A DNA stretch of 49,120 nt, taken from assembly GCA_016865895.1 (NCBI GenBank), contig VGNY01000003.1, forward strand, positions 1-49,120, read 5' to 3'. Under the pieces are notes generated by a model. The model was given only the letters and a program-made list of their open reading frames with translations, did not search any database and was not told where the DNA came from. This document shows positions 1,217-10,319 of this stretch, in pieces. The stretch comes from Chloroflexota bacterium. Its GTDB lineage: Bacteria > Chloroflexota > Dehalococcoidia > GIF9 > UBA5629. How positions within the stretch are numbered: position 1 is the stretch's first letter; the number at the start of each line of letters is the position of its first letter. A program made the translations under genes and the position numbers.

Positions 1217-3883
1217 ATGCTTAAGTGGCTCGGTAGCCTTGTTGATTCCAACGAAAAAGAACTGAAACGTCTTGAGCCTATTGTAGACGAGATAAACTCG
1301 CTTGAGCCTAATTTCCAGAAACTCAGCGACGCTGAACTCCGCGCTAAGACCGATGAGTTCAAAGCCCGTCTAAAAAATGGCGAGACGCTGGATGATATAC
1401 TGCCTGAAGCCTTCGCCGCCGTCAGAGAAGCCGCCAGACGTACTATAGGTGAACGCCACTTCGATGTCCAGCTTATGGGTGGCATCGTCCTCCACCAGGG
1501 AAAAATCGCCGAGATGAAAACCGGCGAAGGTAAAACCCTGGTTGCCACCCTACCTCTATATCTAAATACCCTCAGCGGCGACGGTTGCCACCTCGTCACC
1601 GTCAACGATTACCTGGCACGGCGAGATGCCTACTGGATGGGACCCATATACCATGCCCTCGGCCTTACGGTCGCCAGCATCTATCCCCCACAGAGCCCCG
1701 CCGAGCACCTGCCAGCTCGCCTTTATGACCCCGACTACACCGATGAAAAGGACACACGCTGGCCCCACTTTCGACCCATCACCCGCCGCCAGGCCTACGA
1801 AGCCGATATAACCTACGGCACCAACAACGAATTCGGCTTCGATTACCTCAGAGACAACATGGCCATAGACCTGTCTCAATATGTCCAGCGTCCGCTTAAC
1901 TACGCCATCGTAGACGAGGTGGATAACATACTTATTGATGAAGCCCGTACGCCGCTAATAATCAGCGGTGCTGCCGAAGAAGCCACTGAAAAATACAACA
2001 TCTTTGCTCGACTGGTCCCCCAGCTCAAACAAGACGAAGACTACACCATTGAAGAAAAGGAACGCCAGACCTACCTAACCGAATCAGGCATGACCAAGCT
2101 GGAAAGATGGCTGCGCCGCGATGGCTTGCTCAAAGCCCCAAGTCTCTATGACCCGGCCAACTACGGTCTCAATCAGTACATGGAAAATGCCTTGAAAGCC
2201 CATGCTCTGTTCAAAAGAGACCGTGACTACGTAGTCAAGGACGGGCAGGTTATCATTGTTGATGAGTTCACCGGCCGGTTGATGTTCGGTCGGAGATACT
2301 CAGAAGGGCTACATCAGGCCATTGAAGCCAAAGAAAGGGTCAAAATTCAGCGTGAAAGCATAACTCTAGCCACCATCACCTTCCAGAATTACTTCCGACT
2401 CTACAAGAAACTGGCTGGCATGACCGGCACCGCCGCCACCGAAGCCGAGGAGTTCCACAAGATTTACAAGCTTGAAGTTGTCGTTATACCCACAAACAAA
2501 CCGATGATTCGCATTGACAACCCCGACCAGATTTACAAGGACGAAGAGACCAAATTCAAAGCTGTCGCCAGGGAGATTGAAAACCTCCACCAGCAGGGCA
2601 CGCCGGTGCTCATCGGCACCGTCTCCATCGAGAAATCCGAGCTTTTAAGCGATATCCTAAAAAGGAGAGGCATACCTCACGAGGTGCTCAACGCTAAAAA
2701 CCATGAGAAGGAAGCCGGCATTATCGCCCAGGCTGGCCGCGTAGGCGCTGTCACCGTGGCTACCAACATGGCCGGGCGTGGTGTCGACATTATACTTGGA
2801 GGTAAAAAGCCTGAAAAACCAAAACGCGAGGATTTCCAGGACGAAGAAGAATGGCAGAAGGAACTCAAAAAATGGCAAAGGGAAGAACGGGAATGGCAGG
2901 AGGAGCATGACAGGATAATTCAGCTCGGCGGTCTTCACGTCGTCGGCACTGAGCGCCACGAAGCCAGACGCATTGATAACCAACTCCGCGGCCGCTCTGG
3001 AAGGCAAGGCGACCCCGGCAGCTCCCGTTTCTACGTCTCGCTGGAAGACGATGTTGTCCGTCGCTTTGGCGGCGACCGCATCAAAGGCTTCATGGACTGG
3101 GCTGGCTTCGATGAAAACACGCCTATCGAGCATTCCATGGTCAGCAAAAGCATAGAAAACGCTCAGGTGAAGGTCGAAGGCTACCACTTCGATATCCGCA
3201 AACACCTGGTTGAATATGACGACGTGGTCAATAAGCACCGCGAGGTAATCTATGCCGAGCGCAGGAAAATCCTTGAGGGCGCTGACCTCAAGGCGAACAT
3301 ACTGTCTATGGTTCGGGGGGAAATCGAAAAAACGGTAGCCGCTCACTGCGGCAGCGAGTTAATGGAGCCAGATTCTGCCGGCTTAATCGAAGACCTTGCC
3401 ACCATTTTCCCACCAACACCTGAACTCAACCCCAACACCCTATCTCAGATGAAGCCAAAACAAATCACTGATAAGTTGATTGACTATGCCGGGCAATTGT
3501 ATGAGCAGCGAGAAAAAGAGATAGGCACTGAAAACATGCGGCTGCTGGAAAGACTGGTGATGCTCCGAGCCATTGACAGCTTATGGAAAGACCACCTCAC
3601 TGCCATGGACCACCTTCGTCAGCAGGCTGGCCTTTTTGCCATGCGGCAGATTGAGCCCATAGTCGTCTACAAAAAAGAAGGCCACGCATTCTTCGAGAGC
3701 CTCATCGCCGGCATCAATTATGAGGTCGTCCACACCATTTACAAGGTCAACATCACCGTCAAAGAAGCCCCCGCTCGGAGGCAACCCCAGAGAGCCGCCG
3801 TCCCCGCCGGCAGAAAAGTCGGCCGCAACGAACCCTGCCCCTGCGGCTCAGGCAAAAAATACAAACACTGCTGCGGCAGATAA
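1217..3883 (+). CDS. secA: Preprotein translocase ATPase SecA
   Basis: Motor ATPase that drives unfolded preproteins through SecYEG. The 888 residues include Walker A ([17 protein letters not shown]), the [19 protein letters not shown] Walker B region, the GTAAT linker region, [14 protein letters not shown] and [10 protein letters not shown] helicase motifs, and a C-terminal SEC-C zinc motif [15 protein letters not shown]. An extra stretch (roughly YPPQSPAEH to RPITRRQ) sits in the first nucleotide-binding domain, and a charged [11 protein letters not shown] segment lies before [12 protein letters not shown]. Both look like lineage inserts. The last 18 codons plus stop are duplicated exactly 741 bases downstream. 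Confidence 0.97.
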
Positions 3884-3932
3884 ATACCAATATCAAAACT
3901 GTATTGATATTTCTCCAATATTATGATATACT
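3827..3932 (+). repeat. Direct repeat copy 1: secA 3' end plus downstream promoter
   Basis: Bases 3827-3884 (the last 18 codons of secA, its stop and one A) recur without mismatch at 4568-4625. The similarity continues, diverged and with a one-base indel, through the promoter ending at 3932 (matching 4674). The two copies flank vapBC. The arrangement suggests target-site or attachment-site duplication, or tandem duplication, at the secA 3' end. Confidence 0.9.
3904..3932 (+). promoter_or_regulatory. Predicted vapBC promoter
   Basis: TTGATA at 3904-3909, a 17-base spacer and TATACT at 3927-3932, with TG one base before the -10. Transcription would start near 3939, about 30 bases before vapB. 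AAGAGGG at 3956-3962 serves as ribosome-binding site. VapBC promoters are usually repressed by their own antitoxin complex; the AT-rich stretch after the -10 could be the operator, which is inferred. Confidence 0.65.
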
Positions 3933-3968
3933 ATTTTTATTATAAAATATATATTAAGAGGGCTTAAA

Positions 3969-4172
3969 ATGAAAACACTAATTGATATACAAGATGACTT
4001 GATGAATGAGCTACTAAAGGAAACGGAGGTCAAAACGAAGAAGGAAGCTGTTATCACTGCCATAAAAACCTATCTCAGCTTAAAAAAGAGGCAGAGGCTG
4101 GCATCGCTCATCGGCAATTATGAATTCGGATACACGGCGCAGGATTTAGAAAGAATGAGGACTGATGGATAA
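3969..4172 (+). CDS. vapB: VapB-type antitoxin
   Basis: A protein of 67 residues with a ribbon-helix-helix start (MKTLIDIQDDLMNELLKETEVKTKKEAVITAI, quoted only as its run of positions 1-32) and a LKKRQRL segment, then a C-terminal tail GNYEFGYTAQDLERMR that would bind the toxin. It overlaps vapC by 8 bases, the usual coupled arrangement. The family binds its own promoter and neutralises the VapC RNase. Assignment is by fold pattern and context; the exact subfamily is open. Confidence 0.85.
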   Translation: MKTLIDIQDDLMNELLKETEVKTKKEAVITAIKTYLSLKKRQRLASLIGNYEFGYTAQDLERMRTDG

Positions 4173-4566
4173 AGTAATAGTTGACACCTCAGCCTGGATA
4201 GAATCTTTTCGTCCCTCAGGTGAAGCCAAGCTAAAAGAAATTCTCAAAGAGTTAATATCCGATGGGGAAATATTCCTACCCGGCATCATAAAAACAGAAT
4301 TACTACGAGGAACAAAGTCAAAGAAAGAATTCCAGATGCTCAATGAGCTCTTAGACAGCCTGACTTACCTCTCTGTAGAAGACGATTTCTGGGGTCGATT
4401 AGCCAAATTCTCCTTTAACCTCCTTCGAGAAGGCATCACCGCCCCTCTAACAGACACCTACATTGCCCTTCTAGCGATCGAAAAAAATGCGCCGCTCCTC
4501 CATCGTGACACCCATTTTGATTTGATAGCCCAGAAAACCGGGCTTAAAATATTGGAAGTTAAATAA
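4165..4566 (+). CDS. vapC: VapC-type PIN-domain RNase toxin
   Basis: A PIN-domain protein of 133 residues. [12 protein letters not shown] holds the first acidic metal ligand, [13 protein letters not shown] the conserved Glu, and [29 protein letters not shown] the later Asp residues. PIN toxins cut tRNA or rRNA using Mg2+ and stop growth when released from VapB. All acidic positions expected for activity are present, so it looks intact. The stop codon at 4564-4566 falls two bases before the duplicated secA tail. Confidence 0.9.
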
Positions 4567-4567
4567 A

Positions 4568-4674
4568 AACGAACCCTGCCCCTGCGGCTCAGGCAAAAAA
4601 TACAAACACTGCTGCGGCAGATAAAACCTACAGTCTTCAACTTGATTGATATTTCTCCCTACTTCTGACATACT
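4568..4674 (+). repeat. Direct repeat copy 2: orphan secA tail plus promoter
   Basis: Bases 4568-4625 are identical to 3827-3884 and would still encode [18 protein letters not shown] and a stop, but no start codon or secA body precedes them. The reading frame is closed by the vapC stop. From 4626 the copy diverges but keeps a TTGATA-17-CATACT promoter matching the one before vapB. This is a non-coding relic that now provides the leader for the next gene. Confidence 0.9.
4646..4674 (+). promoter_or_regulatory. Predicted promoter, duplicated copy
   Basis: TTGATA at 4646-4651, 17 bases, CATACT at 4669-4674. It shares TTGATATTTCTCC and GACATACTA-like bases with the vapB promoter. It would give an 85-base leader before the small gene at 4767, which has a strong AAGGAGGAG ribosome-binding site. 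Confidence 0.55.
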
Positions 4675-4766
4675 AATTCTAATAAACGTGATGGACTTGG
4701 AGAGATTGAGCAATTGACATCTCAACTCCAAGCTGCGGTAGAAAGGAACAGACACAAGGAGGAGAC

Positions 4767-4988
4767 ATGAGCCAAATCAAAGAACCAGCAAAGGTTGAAA
4801 TTAAAGTAGGACTTTCTATCAAAGATTTGATTACCGCTCTCCGAGGATTAAATGACGAGGACAGAGAGTTCTTTATTGAAAACCTCCTAGCTGCAACCAA
4901 TCCTGAATACTTGGAAAGCATTAGAGAAGCAAGAGAGGAATACAAAGAAGGAAGAACCGTTCCCTTTGAAAAGGCGTTCAAGGGATAG
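4767..4988 (+). CDS. RelB-like orphan antitoxin, putative
   Basis: A protein of 73 residues. The first part (VEIKVGLSIKDLITALRGL) could form a small dimerisation or DNA-binding unit. The tail YLESIREAREEYKEGRTVPF with FEKAF resembles the toxin-wrapping helix of RelB/Phd-type antitoxins. A clear AGGAGGAG lies 6 bases before the ATG. No toxin gene follows: the next gene is another antitoxin-like protein. It may be an orphan, or may act on a toxin elsewhere. Recognition rests on the C-terminal pattern only. Confidence 0.55.
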   Translation: MSQIKEPAKVEIKVGLSIKDLITALRGLNDEDREFFIENLLAATNPEYLESIREAREEYKEGRTVPFEKAFKG

Positions 4989-5008
4989 GTCAAATCTGAA
5001 TGAAGTGA

Positions 5009-5014
5009 TATACT
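5009..5014 (+). promoter_or_regulatory. Possible -10 element upstream of hicB-like gene
   Basis: TGATATACTAAT at 5007-5018 contains TATACT with an extended TG and repeats the -10 wording seen before vapB and at 4669. No convincing -35 lies upstream. The gene starts 30 bases further on. Confidence 0.35.
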
Positions 5015-5043
5015 AATCTCAAGTAACCCAAGAGGTAATTGAA

Positions 5044-5268
5044 ATGAAGAATTATCGTTTCTCAATAATCGTAGAAAAGGATGAAGATGGCTATTTCGTC
5101 TATTGTCCAGACCTTCAGGGCTGTTACACACAAGGCGACACTTTCGAAGAGGCTATGGCGAATATAAAGGACGCTATCAAGCTTCACATAGAAGACCGCT
5201 TGGCAAGTAACGAGCCTATCACCACCTCGGAGATTGTCAGCCTCTCCAGCTTAGAGGTAACGGCTTGA
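5044..5268 (+). CDS. hicB: HicB-family antitoxin, no HicA partner
   Basis: A protein of 74 residues with the HicB/UPF0150 partial RNase H-like fold: FSIIVEKDEDGYFVYCPDLQ, then GCYTQGDTFEEAMANIKDAI and a helix LHIEDRL. HicB normally neutralises the mRNA interferase HicA and often carries a C-terminal DNA-binding domain, which is absent here. No HicA-like double-stranded-RNA-binding fold is encoded up- or downstream, so this is a solitary antitoxin. GAGGTAATTGAA precedes the start. Confidence 0.85.
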   Translation: MKNYRFSIIVEKDEDGYFVYCPDLQGCYTQGDTFEEAMANIKDAIKLHIEDRLASNEPITTSEIVSLSSLEVTA

Positions 5269-5395
5269 GACAGATATTACTGGCGAATAAATTATTGAAC
5301 TGGAAGATATTCAGTTTAGGCTTCATCGTGATTAAGAGCAAGAGATTGAGATAGCATGATATCCGGGCTTTGGCAATTCGATTTTGGAGAGTGGT

Positions 5396-6379
5396 ATGAG
5401 CTATCACATCCTGCTTACTAAACTCGTTAATTTCAAGGTATGTTTAGAAAGAGGAACCTACGGGGGAATCTATTCAACCGGTTCTCCAAAGTCTGAACAA
5501 ATGAACGCCGAGGTCATAGCAGGATTTGCCGGGATCAAAGCAGGCGATTTTGTGTTGTTTTATGTCAAAAATGAGGGGATTTATGGGCTATGGAAAATCA
5601 CAAGCGATCCTTTTTATGATGACGAACCACTCTGGAATGACCCGGACCAAACCTTTCCCTATAGAATTTGTTTTGAACCAGTCGTGCGAGAATTTAGCCG
5701 TCCGATTGCTCTGAGTGACATACTGGATCTCAGGGACAAAGGCAAGATTTGGACATTTGATTTAACGACGTTTACTAAGAAAAGCCACTATCCTATTACC
5801 ACTGAGGAAGGCAAGGAACTAATTCGATTATTGCTCAGGAATAATCCGATTTACGCTCCCCCTAGGCCAATACCGAATCCTTACCTACCAGTGACAACAA
5901 GGCCTTTGCCGATACAATTAGATTATGACAAAAAGGGACGTTTGATTTACGAAGGCTATCTTAACGCTTGGTTTATGCAAGCTTTCGCCAAGGGTAGACT
6001 AAAAGGACTTATTGGCGACTACAGCGATTTCATAAATCACGTCCCAACCTCGTTCAATAAAGTAATGGACATTTTTCTGACCCATGTGACAAATATTGAT
6101 GGAGTTGACATTCTTCATAAATTCACCTGTATTGAACTAAAAACGGGTACTGTAACAGAAGAAGATTTGAATCAGATCGTAATGTATGAGAATTGGCTGA
6201 TAAGGAAACTTGCACAGGGTGATTCAGAAATGGTCCAAAGCATACTCGTTGGTTTTGAGTTCGACGAAAAGGTTCTGAACTATCGGGAGAAAAGAAGAAT
6301 AATTGAAGAAAAGACAGTAAGATTACTGAAATACACAGTGGATAGGGAAAGGCGCCAAATTACTCTCAATGAAGAATAG
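5396..6379 (+). CDS. EVE-like domain fused to NucS-like PD-(D/E)XK nuclease
   Basis: I chose the ATG at 5396 (327 residues) because GGAGAG lies just before it; an in-frame TTG at 5384 is less likely. Residues 1-125 resemble an EVE/PUA-like domain (GIKAGDFVLFYVKNEGIYGL, then LWND, FPYRICFEP), a fold that reads modified bases in defence proteins. After a proline-rich linker, residues 180-300 look like a NucS-type nuclease: an N-terminal Glu in LIYEGYLNAWF, Asp in KVMDIFL, the E-x-K of CIELKTGTV, and Q...Y in DLNQIVMYENW. It may be a type IV-like restriction enzyme. It is followed 8 bases later by a zinc-ribbon gene. Domain calls are by motif only. Confidence 0.7.
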   Translation: MSYHILLTKLVNFKVCLERGTYGGIYSTGSPKSEQMNAEVIAGFAGIKAGDFVLFYVKNEGIYGLWKITSDPFYDDEPLWNDPDQTFPYRICFEPVVREFSRPIALSDILDLRDKGKIWTFDLTTFTKKSHYPITTEEGKELIRLLLRNNPIYAPPRPIPNPYLPVTTRPLPIQLDYDKKGRLIYEGYLNAWFMQAFAKGRLKGLIGDYSDFINHVPTSFNKVMDIFLTHVTNIDGVDILHKFTCIELKTGTVTEEDLNQIVMYENWLIRKLAQGDSEMVQSILVGFEFDEKVLNYREKRRIIEEKTVRLLKYTVDRERRQITLNEE

Positions 6380-6387
6380 GAGGTAGT

Positions 6388-6615
6388 ATGGGAAAATATA
6401 AGTGTTCAATTTGCGGCTATAGTGGAAGCGAGTTGATATTTGAGCTTAACGATTACACCTATTGTCTGGCTTCAAACGAAGAGGATCCTGAATTCATCGA
6501 TAATTGTCCAACTTGGGTAAATGATAATGGACCTGGAGATTCAGAAATTGGCGAACCAGTTGGATGTCCTAAATGTCATGCATGGGGCGTAGATAAGTTC
6601 GAGGCTACTGAGTAA
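6388..6615 (+). CDS. Small zinc-ribbon protein of unknown function
   Basis: A 75-residue protein with a YKCSICGYSG knuckle near the start and a second PVGCPKCHAWGVDKF knuckle near the end, enough for one four-cysteine zinc ribbon. The middle is acidic (NEEDPEFIDN). An AGGAGG lies 5 bases before the ATG, and the nuclease gene ends 8 bases upstream, so it is probably co-translated. It may be a partner or adaptor of the nuclease; this is inferred from position. Confidence 0.65.
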   Translation: MGKYKCSICGYSGSELIFELNDYTYCLASNEEDPEFIDNCPTWVNDNGPGDSEIGEPVGCPKCHAWGVDKFEATE

Positions 6616-6622
6616 GATAGAC

Positions 6623-7302
6623 ATGGCTTGGAAGAGCACGACCATTGACGTATGTAAAGAAGAAGGTCGACAAACCATTGGATACGATATAGCCCCGGCA
6701 CATCCTGAAGTTATACAGAACGATGCTCGGCGTATACCACTTCATGACGACTCTGTGGATATGGTATTCATAGATTCACCCTATTCCGACAACATAAATT
6801 ACTCCGACCACCCAGACTGCATCGGCAAGATTTCGTGTGAGGACGAACGTTTCTTCGAAGAGCTTGACAAAGTTGCGGCTGAGATACACAGGATTCTTAA
6901 GCCTGGCAAAGTAATGGCTTGGCTAATTGGTGACCAATGGGTTAAGAAAAAATTTACAGCCGTAGGCTTCAAATTATATGAGCGCCTGTGTAAATACTTC
7001 GAAACTGTAGATGTTATTTCCATAGTCAGAAGAGGGCAAACTTCAAATACAGGGCTTTGGCACAATAGAGCAAGAAGGTTTAACTTTTATCTCCGCGGCT
7101 TCAAATACCTCTTTATAATGCGCAAGCCCATAATCGAAACTGAGAAAGACGAGCAAAACCGCTCGGTAAAATGGGCTAGATACGAGAGAGGCGAAACGAA
7201 GAAAAGAAGTAAAACCAAAAGTGCTTCTTCAATCACGGCAACCCCGACTGGGAGTGGATAAAGGAACGGATTGAGCATTATAATAAAGTGAGCGAAGCAT
7301 AG
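6623..7302 (+). pseudogene. Truncated and frameshifted N4/N6 DNA methyltransferase
   Basis: The open frame 6623-7261 holds a DNA methyltransferase core: TTIDVCKEEGRQTIGYDI (the end of the AdoMet-binding region), VDMVFIDSPYSDN (motif IV, DSPY instead of DPPY/SPPY) and IHRILKPGKVMAWLIGDQW. The residues normally preceding TT, the DPFxGSG of motif I, are missing; before STT the frame reads only KIDMAWK and has no good start. Near 7199-7215 the frame seems to slip by -1: the current end is a low-complexity tail, while the next frame reads protein-like KCFFNHGNPDWEWIKERI and stops at 7302. It is probably a decayed modification enzyme. Confidence 0.7.
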
Positions 7303-7325
7303 ATAATTCGGAGAGAATAGAGTTC

Positions 7326-7517
7326 ATGAAACAACCAAAAAGCGAATTCATAACTGACGCCAACGGCAAGAAGAAGGCGGTGATTCTAGATATAAGCCTT
7401 TATCAGGAAATTCTGGAAGACTTGGAAGACCTTCGCCTTTTGGCCGAAAGAAAAGACGAAGCCACAATTCCCCTCAGTGAAGTGGAAAAGAGGCTAAAGG
7501 CACGTGGCCTCCTATGA
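7326..7517 (+). CDS. Phd/YefM-type antitoxin
   Basis: A 63-residue protein. KSEFITDANGKKKAVILDIS followed by LYQEILEDLEDLRLLAER is the typical prevent-host-death pattern, in which a short beta unit recognises DNA and a long helix binds toxin. The tail IPLSEVEKRLKARGLL is the toxin-binding segment. It overlaps the RelE gene by 14 bases. The pair forms a complete type II toxin-antitoxin module, and the antitoxin should also repress the pair. Confidence 0.85.
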   Translation: MKQPKSEFITDANGKKKAVILDISLYQEILEDLEDLRLLAERKDEATIPLSEVEKRLKARGLL

Positions 7518-7767
7518 AGTCAGAATAACCCACTCAGCAGAGGAAGAGCTTCTTAAGCTTGATAAATCTGTAGTCCCCGCTGTCTGGCAAAAAATAAAGG
7601 CGTTGGCAGAACAACCAAGGCCAAGACAATGCAGAAAGTTGAGAGGGACAGAGAAATCATACCGTCTTAGAGTAAGGGGCTATCGCATTGTCTATACTAT
7701 CGACGACAAGCAAAGACTAGTTACAATCGTAGCCATCCGACATAGAAGGGAAGTATATCGTGGGTGA
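7504..7767 (+). CDS. relE: RelE/ParE-family toxin
   Basis: An 87-residue protein starting at GTG 7504 inside the antitoxin gene. YEVRITHSAEEELLKLDKS, then KLRGTEKSYRLRVRGYRIVY and a closing IVAIRHRREVYRG are the classic RelE fold signature; the basic residues in the last strand act in ribosome-dependent mRNA cleavage. It appears intact. Its TGA overlaps a GTG of the downstream polX frame, so read-through coupling to polX is possible. Confidence 0.9.
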   Translation: MASYEVRITHSAEEELLKLDKSVVPAVWQKIKALAEQPRPRQCRKLRGTEKSYRLRVRGYRIVYTIDDKQRLVTIVAIRHRREVYRG

Positions 7768-7775
7768 GGAGGCCA

Positions 7776-9497
7776 ATGAAAAACACCGCTATTGCTAAAG
7801 TATTCCAGGATATGGCTGATTTGCTGGAGCTTAAGGGGGAGAACCCGTTTAAGATTCGAGCCTACCAGCGGGCTGCTCGCACCATCGAGCACCTGCCTAA
7901 AGAGATAGAAATAATGCTCGAAGAAGGCGAGGACTTGCAAACTATACCCGGCGTCGGCGAGGCAATAGCCAAGAAAAGCACCGAACTGGTAAGAACCGGG
8001 AAGCTTCGTGTCTACGAAGAGCTTAAGGCTGAGTTCCCTGAAGGCATAACTACACTGCTCGAAATCCCCGGCATCGGACCCAAGACAGCAAAGCGGCTCT
8101 CTACCGAGCTGGGAATTAAGTCCGTGGATGACCTGGAGCAGGCTATTAAAGACGGACGAGTCGCCAGTCTGTTCCGCCTCGGCGATAAGACAGCCGATAA
8201 TATACTGCAGCAAATCCAAGCCCTGCGCCGTAAAGACCAGCGTATACCCATAGGCGAAGCCCTGCCCGTGGTGGACGAGGTCCTAAACGCCCTTCGACCC
8301 ATGCTGGGCGTAAAGAACCTGACCGCTGCTGGCAGCCTGCGCCGCTTCCGAGAGACTGTGGGCGATATAGACCTCATGGGCACCGCCGATAATCCCGAGG
8401 ATGTTATCAATGCCTTCGTCAAACTGCCCCAGGTAAGGGAAGTACTGGCTAAAGGTCCCACTAAAGCCAGCATCATCCTCCCCGGCGGACTTCAAGCTGA
8501 CTTGAGAATGGTGGAGCACAACTCCTTCGGCTCGCTGCTCCAGTATTTCACGGGTAGCAAGCAGCACAACATCGCCCTCAGGACCAGGGAACAGAAAAAG
8601 GGGCTCAAGCTGAGCGAATACGGCATAACTGACACTAAGACCAACAAGCTGGAGAAATTCGCCACTGAAGAAGCCTTCTACCGCCGACTGGGACTTCAGT
8701 ACATTCCACCAGAGCTGAGAGAAGACATGGGGGAAATAGACCTTGCCGAGCAAGGCAAAATCCCCAAGCTGGTGGAACTGCCAGACATAAAGGGAGACAT
8801 CCACGTTCACACCGACTGGAGCGATGGCCATGACTCCATCGAAGCCATGGCTCAGGCAGCCAAAGCCCTCGGTTATCAGTACGTGGCAATCACTGACCAT
8901 TCAGCAGGACGAGGCGTCGCACACGGACTTAATGAGGAACGGCTGCGACAGCAGATGGACGAAATCAAAAGGCTAAACCAGCAGCTCAAAGGATTTCGTA
9001 TCCTCACAGGTACTGAGGTAGACATCCGCGCCGATGGCAGCATAGACCTGCCTGATGGACTTTTAGCTGGCTTAGACATCGTGATTGCTGCTATCCACTC
9101 AGCCATGACTCAAAGCGAAGCGCAGATAACCAGGCGCATCCTCGGCGCTATTGAAAACCCGCATATTGATGTTATTGCCCACCCTACTTGCCGCCTTTTG
9201 GGTGAGCGAGAGCCGGTAGCCGTTGACATGGAAGCTGTTTTCCAAGCTGCCGCCAAATACGATAAGGCCCTGGAAATAAACGCCATGCCCAGCCGGCTCG
9301 ACTTGAAAGATATTCATGTCTACCGGGCTAGGGAGCTGGGAATAAAGCTAATCATGGGCACAGATGCCCACAGCACTGCCCAGCTAGGTTTTATGCGTTA
9401 TGGCATCGGTGTTGCCCGTCGCGGCTGGTGCCAGCCCAAACATATACTCAACACCTGGGCCATAGAGAAAATACTGGCTTTTCTTAAAAGACAATAA
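7776..9497 (+). CDS. polX: DNA polymerase/3'-5' exonuclease PolX
   Basis: Family X repair polymerase that fills short gaps in base excision repair. The ATG at 7776 (573 residues) follows AGGAGG; an in-frame GTG at 7764 overlaps relE. The N-terminal 8 kDa-like domain has helix-hairpin-helix motifs (IPGVGEAIAKK, IPGIGPKTAKR). The nucleotidyltransferase signature GSLRRFRETVGDIDLMG and QADLRMV provide three Asp metal ligands. The C-terminal PHP domain begins at GDIHVHTDWSDGH and carries further His/Asp ligands (ITDHS, HPTCR, GTDAHS), giving the Mn-dependent exonuclease. Length and order are typical of bacterial PolX. Confidence 0.96.
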   Translation: MKNTAIAKVFQDMADLLELKGENPFKIRAYQRAARTIEHLPKEIEIMLEEGEDLQTIPGVGEAIAKKSTELVRTGKLRVYEELKAEFPEGITTLLEIPGIGPKTAKRLSTELGIKSVDDLEQAIKDGRVASLFRLGDKTADNILQQIQALRRKDQRIPIGEALPVVDEVLNALRPMLGVKNLTAAGSLRRFRETVGDIDLMGTADNPEDVINAFVKLPQVREVLAKGPTKASIILPGGLQADLRMVEHNSFGSLLQYFTGSKQHNIALRTREQKKGLKLSEYGITDTKTNKLEKFATEEAFYRRLGLQYIPPELREDMGEIDLAEQGKIPKLVELPDIKGDIHVHTDWSDGHDSIEAMAQAAKALGYQYVAITDHSAGRGVAHGLNEERLRQQMDEIKRLNQQLKGFRILTGTEVDIRADGSIDLPDGLLAGLDIVIAAIHSAMTQSEAQITRRILGAIENPHIDVIAHPTCRLLGEREPVAVDMEAVFQAAAKYDKALEINAMPSRLDLKDIHVYRARELGIKLIMGTDAHSTAQLGFMRYGIGVARRGWCQPKHILNTWAIEKILAFLKRQ

Positions 9498-9617: not shown

Positions 9618-10319
9618 ATGCCACCAAAAGAGCTCAAAGACATCTCGAATACACAGACCGAAGCTGATGCCAGAGCAATCGAGCACCTTAAACAAGCTGT
9701 AGCTAAGGGCAAGCACTGGTATCTGGCTTTGCTCGAGACTATCGGATTGTGGAAAAGCTCTGAAGAAAATTACCGAGGGCGCCACTACCGCTACTTAATT
9801 GCTGGTGAGGCTTTTGATTGGCTGGTACTGGCTGAGCGCTTGTGTGACGAAATCAGCGAGTCCATACCGGAAAAGGAGAGAATCGACCTCCTTTTCTTTG
9901 ACCGGCCACCACTAGAGCTTACTCGTGAGGAATTCAAGAAGCTTATTGGGCCAGCCAAATATAAGGCTTATCTCAACTACCTTTACGGCATTCTGGCTGA
10001 GGAGGCTCTGATTTCGGCTGTAGTTGATGAGATTCGTAAGGAGCGTCGGGCTCTAGGCTCGAATAGACATGAGGACATTGTGGACAAAGCGTATCATCGG
10101 ATTTATGGTGAAAATCAGCAAACCCTGCTCGACAGCTTCAGAAGAGAAAAGCAGTATCCCAAACGCAAATCCATGACCCTGACTGAATTTAAGGAATTCG
10201 CCTACTGGCTATTCAACTATCGAGTTGAAAGATGTGACAAGTCACGAGTTGCCAGCGATACCAAGAAAGCCCTGACGAAGATACAAAGCGACCTTGCAGC
10301 CAAAAAGCTACACCTCTAA
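9618..10319 (+). CDS. Conserved-looking helical protein of unknown function
   Basis: A 233-residue soluble protein without a signal peptide or membrane segment. It is rich in charged helices: AIEHLKQAVAKGKHWYLALL, a central AGEAFDWLVLAERLCDEI, then DEIRKERRALG and a basic C-terminus ending AAKKLHL. I do not recognise a family, and no catalytic motif stands out. It follows polX after a repeat, on the same strand, and has no partner gene. Codon use looks ordinary, so it is probably a real gene. Confidence 0.6.
   Translation: MPPKELKDISNTQTEADARAIEHLKQAVAKGKHWYLALLETIGLWKSSEENYRGRHYRYLIAGEAFDWLVLAERLCDEISESIPEKERIDLLFFDRPPLELTREEFKKLIGPAKYKAYLNYLYGILAEEALISAVVDEIRKERRALGSNRHEDIVDKAYHRIYGENQQTLLDSFRREKQYPKRKSMTLTEFKEFAYWLFNYRVERCDKSRVASDTKKALTKIQSDLAAKKLHL

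Follow-up and report, generated by a model that had tools for sequence, protein, structure and literature searches.

A predicted modification-dependent EVE-NucS-type nuclease and its small partner gene beside a methyltransferase relic in a Chloroflexota bacterium

Introduction

Between secA and a polX-type gene of a Chloroflexota bacterium, three reading frames follow one another closely: a nuclease gene, a gene for a small ribbon protein, and a methyltransferase-like frame. The initial annotation of this DNA treated them as a candidate base-modification-sensing nuclease operon, whose zinc-ribbon partner and gene order it did not recognise as a known system and which lay inside a toxin-antitoxin island. 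The question raised by the locus is which of these genes form the working unit, what that unit does, and whether a methylase belongs to it. The DNA analyzed here, referred to as the window, is 49,120 nucleotides long and makes up the whole of contig C3. Although the genome bin has a contamination of 8.9%, the flanking secA and polX products are 86% and 89% identical at the protein level to those of genome G003, and the locus is therefore not an obvious contaminant.

The secA-polX site

The features of the site are listed below, with coordinates in the window, strand, and description.

1217..3883, +, secA, bounding the variable site on the left
3827..3884, +, secA 3' end, repeat copy 1
3969..4566, +, VapB-VapC module between both secA repeat copies (Pfam)
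4568..4625, +, second repeat copy of the secA 3' end (58 nt, 100% identical)
4767..4988, +, RelB-like antitoxin without toxin (toxin present in G023)
5044..5268, +, HicB antitoxin without HicA (Pfam; HicA present in G023)
5396..6379, +, EVE-nuclease fusion, 327 aa, starting at ATG 5396
5396..5842, +, EVE (PUA-like) reader domain, residues 1-149 (Pfam, profile, Foldseek)
5951..6376, +, NucS-like PD-(D/E)XK nuclease domain, residues 186-327 (invariant columns; NucS/EndoMS fold matches)
6388..6615, +, ZnR, acidic protein of 75 aa (pI 4.1) with a rubredoxin-like Cys4 ribbon
6623..7261, +, 5'-truncated remnant, without the SAM loop, of an N4/N6 methyltransferase of the BsaWI-associated kind (model positions 102-313)
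7207..7287, +, C-terminal remnant of AP (an acidic gene of ~75 aa), joined out of frame to the methyltransferase end
7326..7767, +, RelB/ParE toxin-antitoxin module between the methyltransferase relic and polX (Pfam)
7776..9497, +, polX-type polymerase/PHP gene, bounding the variable site on the right (presumably polX, a name given from reading its sequence)

The region between secA and polX is a defence hotspot in this order (window 1217-9497; L096, L097, L106, L110, L111, L112, L113). Its occupants alternate between EVE-nucleases, BsaWI-type restriction-modification (R-M) systems, EVE-nuclease-methyltransferase operons, and a second EVE protein, and restriction modules are interchangeable at this place across the order.

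At the left border, the terminal ~45-58 nt of secA are duplicated (window 3827-3884 and 4568-4625; L106, L107, L108, L014). A single toxin-antitoxin module, such as VapBC, VapC with an antitoxin, HicBA, or RelBE, lies between successive copies, of which G023 has four. Pairs of the repeat also occur without a recognised toxin-antitoxin pair, in G005 and G030. The secA 3' end looks like a place of stepwise insertion of toxin-antitoxin cassettes, and no recombinase was seen at the repeats. The toxin-antitoxin island is real in its VapBC and RelB/ParE pairs but partly broken, two antitoxins having lost toxins that G023 still has. Downstream of polX, the window contains an open reading frame of 233 aa (9618-10319) with no Pfam match and no convincing match in NCBIfam or PADLOC.

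The EVE-nuclease fusion

The first half of the 327-aa protein is an EVE domain. Pfam EVE is found at residues 47-143 (E=2.5e-8, 34.4 bits against a curated cut-off of 23), and a profile built from 23 homologues retrieves PH1033 (9.4e-13, 1wmm) and MJECL36 (9.2e-12) for this half. With regard to a possible pocket for a flipped modified base, an aromatic-Gly motif, Y22-G23, and hydrophobic positions are kept in the homologue alignment. For the second half, the same profile gives a weak match to NucS (0.052). Nine columns are invariant over the 23 homologues, including E186, D225, E247-x-K249, Q260, and Y264, which are the set expected of a PD-(D/E)XK nuclease.

A structure model based on 23 sequences reached a pLDDT of 91.2 and a pTM of 0.90, while an earlier model of the nuclease from only 3 sequences (pLDDT 39) was useless. 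In Foldseek searches, the EVE half of the model matches 1wmm (5e-8) and VcaM4I (6yex, 6e-5), and the second half matches NucS (2vld, 4.7e-4) and EndoMS (5gke, 3e-3). The NucS-like assignment is thus supported by the profile, the invariant columns, the model, and the Foldseek matches. The protein belongs to the EVE-domain proteins, by a score above the curated cut-off and by its fold, and to the NucS-like PD-(D/E)XK nucleases, by its E...D...ExK...Q core and fold. It is not NucS/EndoMS proper, as its N-terminus is an EVE domain and no Pfam NucS_C match is reported. A reader is therefore fused to a nuclease, as in Type IV enzymes, and the gene is under purifying selection (dN/dS about 0.1). The initial annotation had proposed this fusion, with its acidic and lysine positions, and had named structure prediction as one way to check it; the fusion and these positions are confirmed.

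Small partner genes behind the nuclease

The ZnR gene begins 8 nt past the nuclease stop, and Cys 6, 9, 60, and 63 of its product are invariant in 4 homologues. The weak matches of ZnR are to rubredoxin-type ribbons, and consequently its metal could be either zinc or iron. The proteins have a pI of 4.1-4.9, and dN/dS is 0.17-0.34 where dS is measurable. Of 246 related genomes, 4 have ZnR, and in all of them it lies immediately behind this nuclease, with a gap of 0-8 nt. The tight linkage first proposed for the ribbon gene is therefore upheld.

A survey of gene neighbourhoods shows that this linkage holds in one direction: ZnR always adjoins the nuclease where it is present, but other close relatives of the nuclease have a different small gene at that position. 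The close clade comprises 17 loci, the window included, with nucleases 52-81% identical. Its partner slot holds ZnR in four loci, a second Cys-knuckle type (motif CGECNW...GLCGECF) in two, AP in six, a 156-aa protein in two, and no recognised partner in three (L030, L031, L119). ZnR as an obligatory partner is rejected, since in 13 of the 17 loci the slot holds some other small gene or no recognised one. In the nuclease tree, two ZnR loci form a group with the window (100/99), and the sister of this group is a pair with AP (Methanoperedens and G528). The pair with the 156-aa protein nests beside an AP locus, while the fourth ZnR locus has no resolved place near the base. This distribution of partner types on the tree indicates that partner genes are exchanged.

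AP is an uncharacterised acidic family of ~75 aa (pI 4.1-4.9) with no Pfam match (e.g., L026 7997-8221). It is found in 32 of the 246 genomes, behind EVE nucleases, methyltransferases, methyltransferase-HNH pairs, and others. Its occurrence behind many restriction genes, in bacteria as well as archaea, accompanies its listing here as a candidate restriction regulator or inhibitor. A small-partner slot beside restriction genes, filled by several unrelated families in both bacteria and archaea, is of interest in its own right.

Two further gene types were observed near such loci. In L052, L054, L061, L067, and L072, a second EVE fusion of ~290 aa (EVE 4.4e-6) with a different C-terminal half is followed by AP. 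Upstream of some EVE-nucleases (L003 2534-2944, L004 999-1409, L014 2525-2935) lies a 136-aa protein that resembles the nuclease half and appears to have no ExK motif; going by its sequence, it could be a dead partner subunit.

The methyltransferase relic

The third reading frame (6623-7261) represents the C-terminal two thirds of a methyltransferase (MTase) and aligns to about 102-313 of the full-length model. In the alignment, DPMAGSGTTIDVCK of the full MTase of G003 stands opposite (D)MAWKSTTIDVCK in the window, and the glycine loop DPMAGSGTT has become (D)MAWKSTT. The first ~100 residues and the SAM loop are missing, and the locus therefore does not have the intact cognate methylase of a Type II system. 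The last ~18 residues of the frame are an out-of-frame scrap of AP; in G003 and G005, as in the window, the 3' end of the MTase runs out of frame into a C-terminal remnant of AP.

The origin of the relic can be read from related genomes. In G003 and G005, which belong to the same family as the window, an intact pair of restriction endonuclease (REase) and MTase occupies the same secA-polX site, in the order secA, BsaWI-type REase (PF18643, E=3.9e-30 in G003), MTase of 307-312 aa, polX. No PF18643 REase is present at the window locus, which is therefore not a BsaWI-type R-M system itself. G064, which belongs to another family of the order, has the same nuclease-ZnR pair at this site. The window and G064 have a common MTase breakpoint (position 98-102), and G064 has lost most of the remaining MTase. 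G003 and G005, set against the window and G064, are natural before-and-after loci for the replacement of one defence by another.

Fragments of R-M genes lie nearby in 9 of the 17 close loci. Five loci have MTase fragments (the window, G064, L021, L029, and L032), and L021 also has an REase fragment upstream. In G490 an MTase fragment lies upstream, and REase fragments occur in G528, G513, and L031 (NgoMIV type). An intact MTase was found in none of the checked flanks of the 17 loci with three MTase profiles and a motif search, a combination that could miss other MTase classes; in some loci the flank on one side was as short as 0.2 kb, and three loci had 1.5 kb. Persistence without a cognate methylase, a mark of Type IV enzymes, is thus seen in the 17 close loci over flanks of partly 0.2-1.5 kb. 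A three-gene operon of nuclease, ribbon protein, and working methylase is rejected: the supposed DNA methyltransferase core is not a partner of the nuclease but the relic of a separate BsaWI-type R-M system.

Horizontal spread and distribution

Between the window and G064, dS is 0.93 for the nuclease, while it is saturated for secA and polX. Consequently, the cassette has moved horizontally. The distribution of the nuclease is patchy (17 of 246 genomes). No close relative of it was found in viral contigs, phage genomes, or plasmids, which gave one weak plasmid match; ZnR and AP were not found in viral contigs, nor AP in plasmids. Methyltransferases for 5mC occur in 4 of the 17 nuclease-carrying genomes as against 50 of all 246, which does not support avoidance of 5mC methylases by the carriers. 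As the carriers are not depleted in these enzymes, 5mC as a target gets no support.

Proposed function of the gene pair

The reading preferred here, with a probability of roughly 0.62, is that the functional unit consists of two genes, the EVE-NucS-type endonuclease and its small ribbon partner, that the unit is modification-dependent (Type IV-like) and needs no methylase of its own, and that the cassette replaced a BsaWI-type R-M pair. For the EVE-nuclease itself, a nuclease for modified DNA is the best reading of its predicted function. The nuclease is kept by selection while the MTase decays, and it moves between hosts without one, which fits a modification-dependent enzyme. The locus suggests that the gene pair settled in older R-M remains and is independent of that methylase; the working unit of reader-nuclease and small partner can in this way be separated from older debris. 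The pair probably attacks chemically modified foreign DNA, which would give it an antiphage role.

The proposed mechanism is as follows. The EVE half would probably flip and read a modified base, and the nuclease half would then cut the DNA, so that the protein would act as a modification-dependent (Type IV-like) restriction enzyme with no methylase of its own required. The ribbon protein probably modulates the nuclease or assembles with it, because close relatives have a different small gene in its place. The cassette spreads horizontally, and here it replaced the BsaWI-type pair between secA and polX and left the back end of the methylase behind.

It is doubtful, though conceivable, that the target of the close EVE-nuclease clade is the methyl mark of BsaWI/NgoMIV-type systems themselves (possibly N4-methylcytosine). 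The arrival of the nuclease would then make a resident methylase lethal, the nuclease would survive only where that methylase is destroyed, and the exchangeable metal or acidic protein would restrain it. If true, this would account for the presence of R-M fragments beside the nuclease and for the absence there of any intact methylase: one defence system would be evicting another.

It is unlikely that the protein is a Type II restriction enzyme that recognises an unmodified sequence through its EVE-like domain, with an adjacent or distant methylase for protection. Diverged homologues (about 20-28% identity) do adjoin intact MTases in L003, L004, L014, L016, L017, and L019, in compact operons with amino-MTases or Dam-like D12 MTases (in L016 in the order BsaWI-type REase, nuclease, MTase), and several other N4/N6 MTases elsewhere in G000 could provide protection. 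However, the checked flanks of the 17 close loci yielded no intact MTase, that of the window has no SAM loop, and the nuclease survives with no methylase, which speaks against a classical Type II enzyme and for a modification-dependent one. Moreover, no methylase travels with the cassette as it moves between lineages and sites, and a recipient would die if cutting needed protection.

A role in DNA repair, as a NucS/Vsr-like nuclease whose EVE domain senses the damaged or mismatched bases at which it cuts, is quite improbable. NucS/EndoMS is indeed the nearest match of the catalytic half, and L030, in a probable ATPase operon, has neither a recognised partner nor R-M debris, but the NucS N-terminal domain is absent, and the patchy distribution, horizontal transfer, and repeated siting among R-M fragments and toxin-antitoxin modules fit defence better. 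It is very improbable that the protein belongs to the toxin-antitoxin island as a toxin-like or RNA-directed nuclease, for which the ribbon or acidic protein would serve as antitoxin: the small, often acidic partner (ZnR, AP) directly downstream inside a toxin-antitoxin hotspot and the occurrence of EVE domains in toxin-antitoxin contexts too (PMC7641849) would agree with it, but L030, L031, and L119 have no recognised partner, AP also goes with quite different restriction genes, and PD-(D/E)XK, the type of the nuclease half, is a DNA-cutting one.

Comparison with known systems

A literature search found nothing on EVE with NucS, EVE with BsaWI, or secA with toxin-antitoxin in Dehalococcoidia. 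The secA-polX defence hotspot and the toxin-antitoxin modules between copies of the secA 3' end are new. Among individual proteins, the best sequence and structure matches of the EVE half are UPF0310 PH1033 and MJECL36 (1wmm, 2p5d), but these are stand-alone EVE proteins without a nuclease. NucS/EndoMS (2vld, 5gke) has the C-terminal PD-(D/E)XK core in common with the window protein, in which EVE replaces the NucS N-terminal domain. From the BsaWI-type Type II systems (PF18643 REase with N4/N6 MTase) the MTase fragment derives, whereas the window locus has no such REase, its MTase is a relic, and its EVE nuclease and that REase are not related.

VcaM4I, the EVE domain of which flips 5mC/5hmC (PMC7897488), likewise joins an N-terminal EVE reader to a nuclease (fold match 6e-5); its catalytic domain is HNH, while that of the window protein is PD-(D/E)XK. 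The nearest known relatives are the EVE-PD(D/E)XK fusions, a class described as predicted Type IV enzymes (Bell, Wolf, and Koonin 2020, PMC7641849), with core architecture and defence context alike. The architecture of the fusion is thus a described one. New are the NucS-type catalytic half, the exchangeable slot for a ribbon or acidic partner, and the recurrent location in broken BsaWI/NgoMIV-type R-M loci, which the consulted sections of that paper do not mention.
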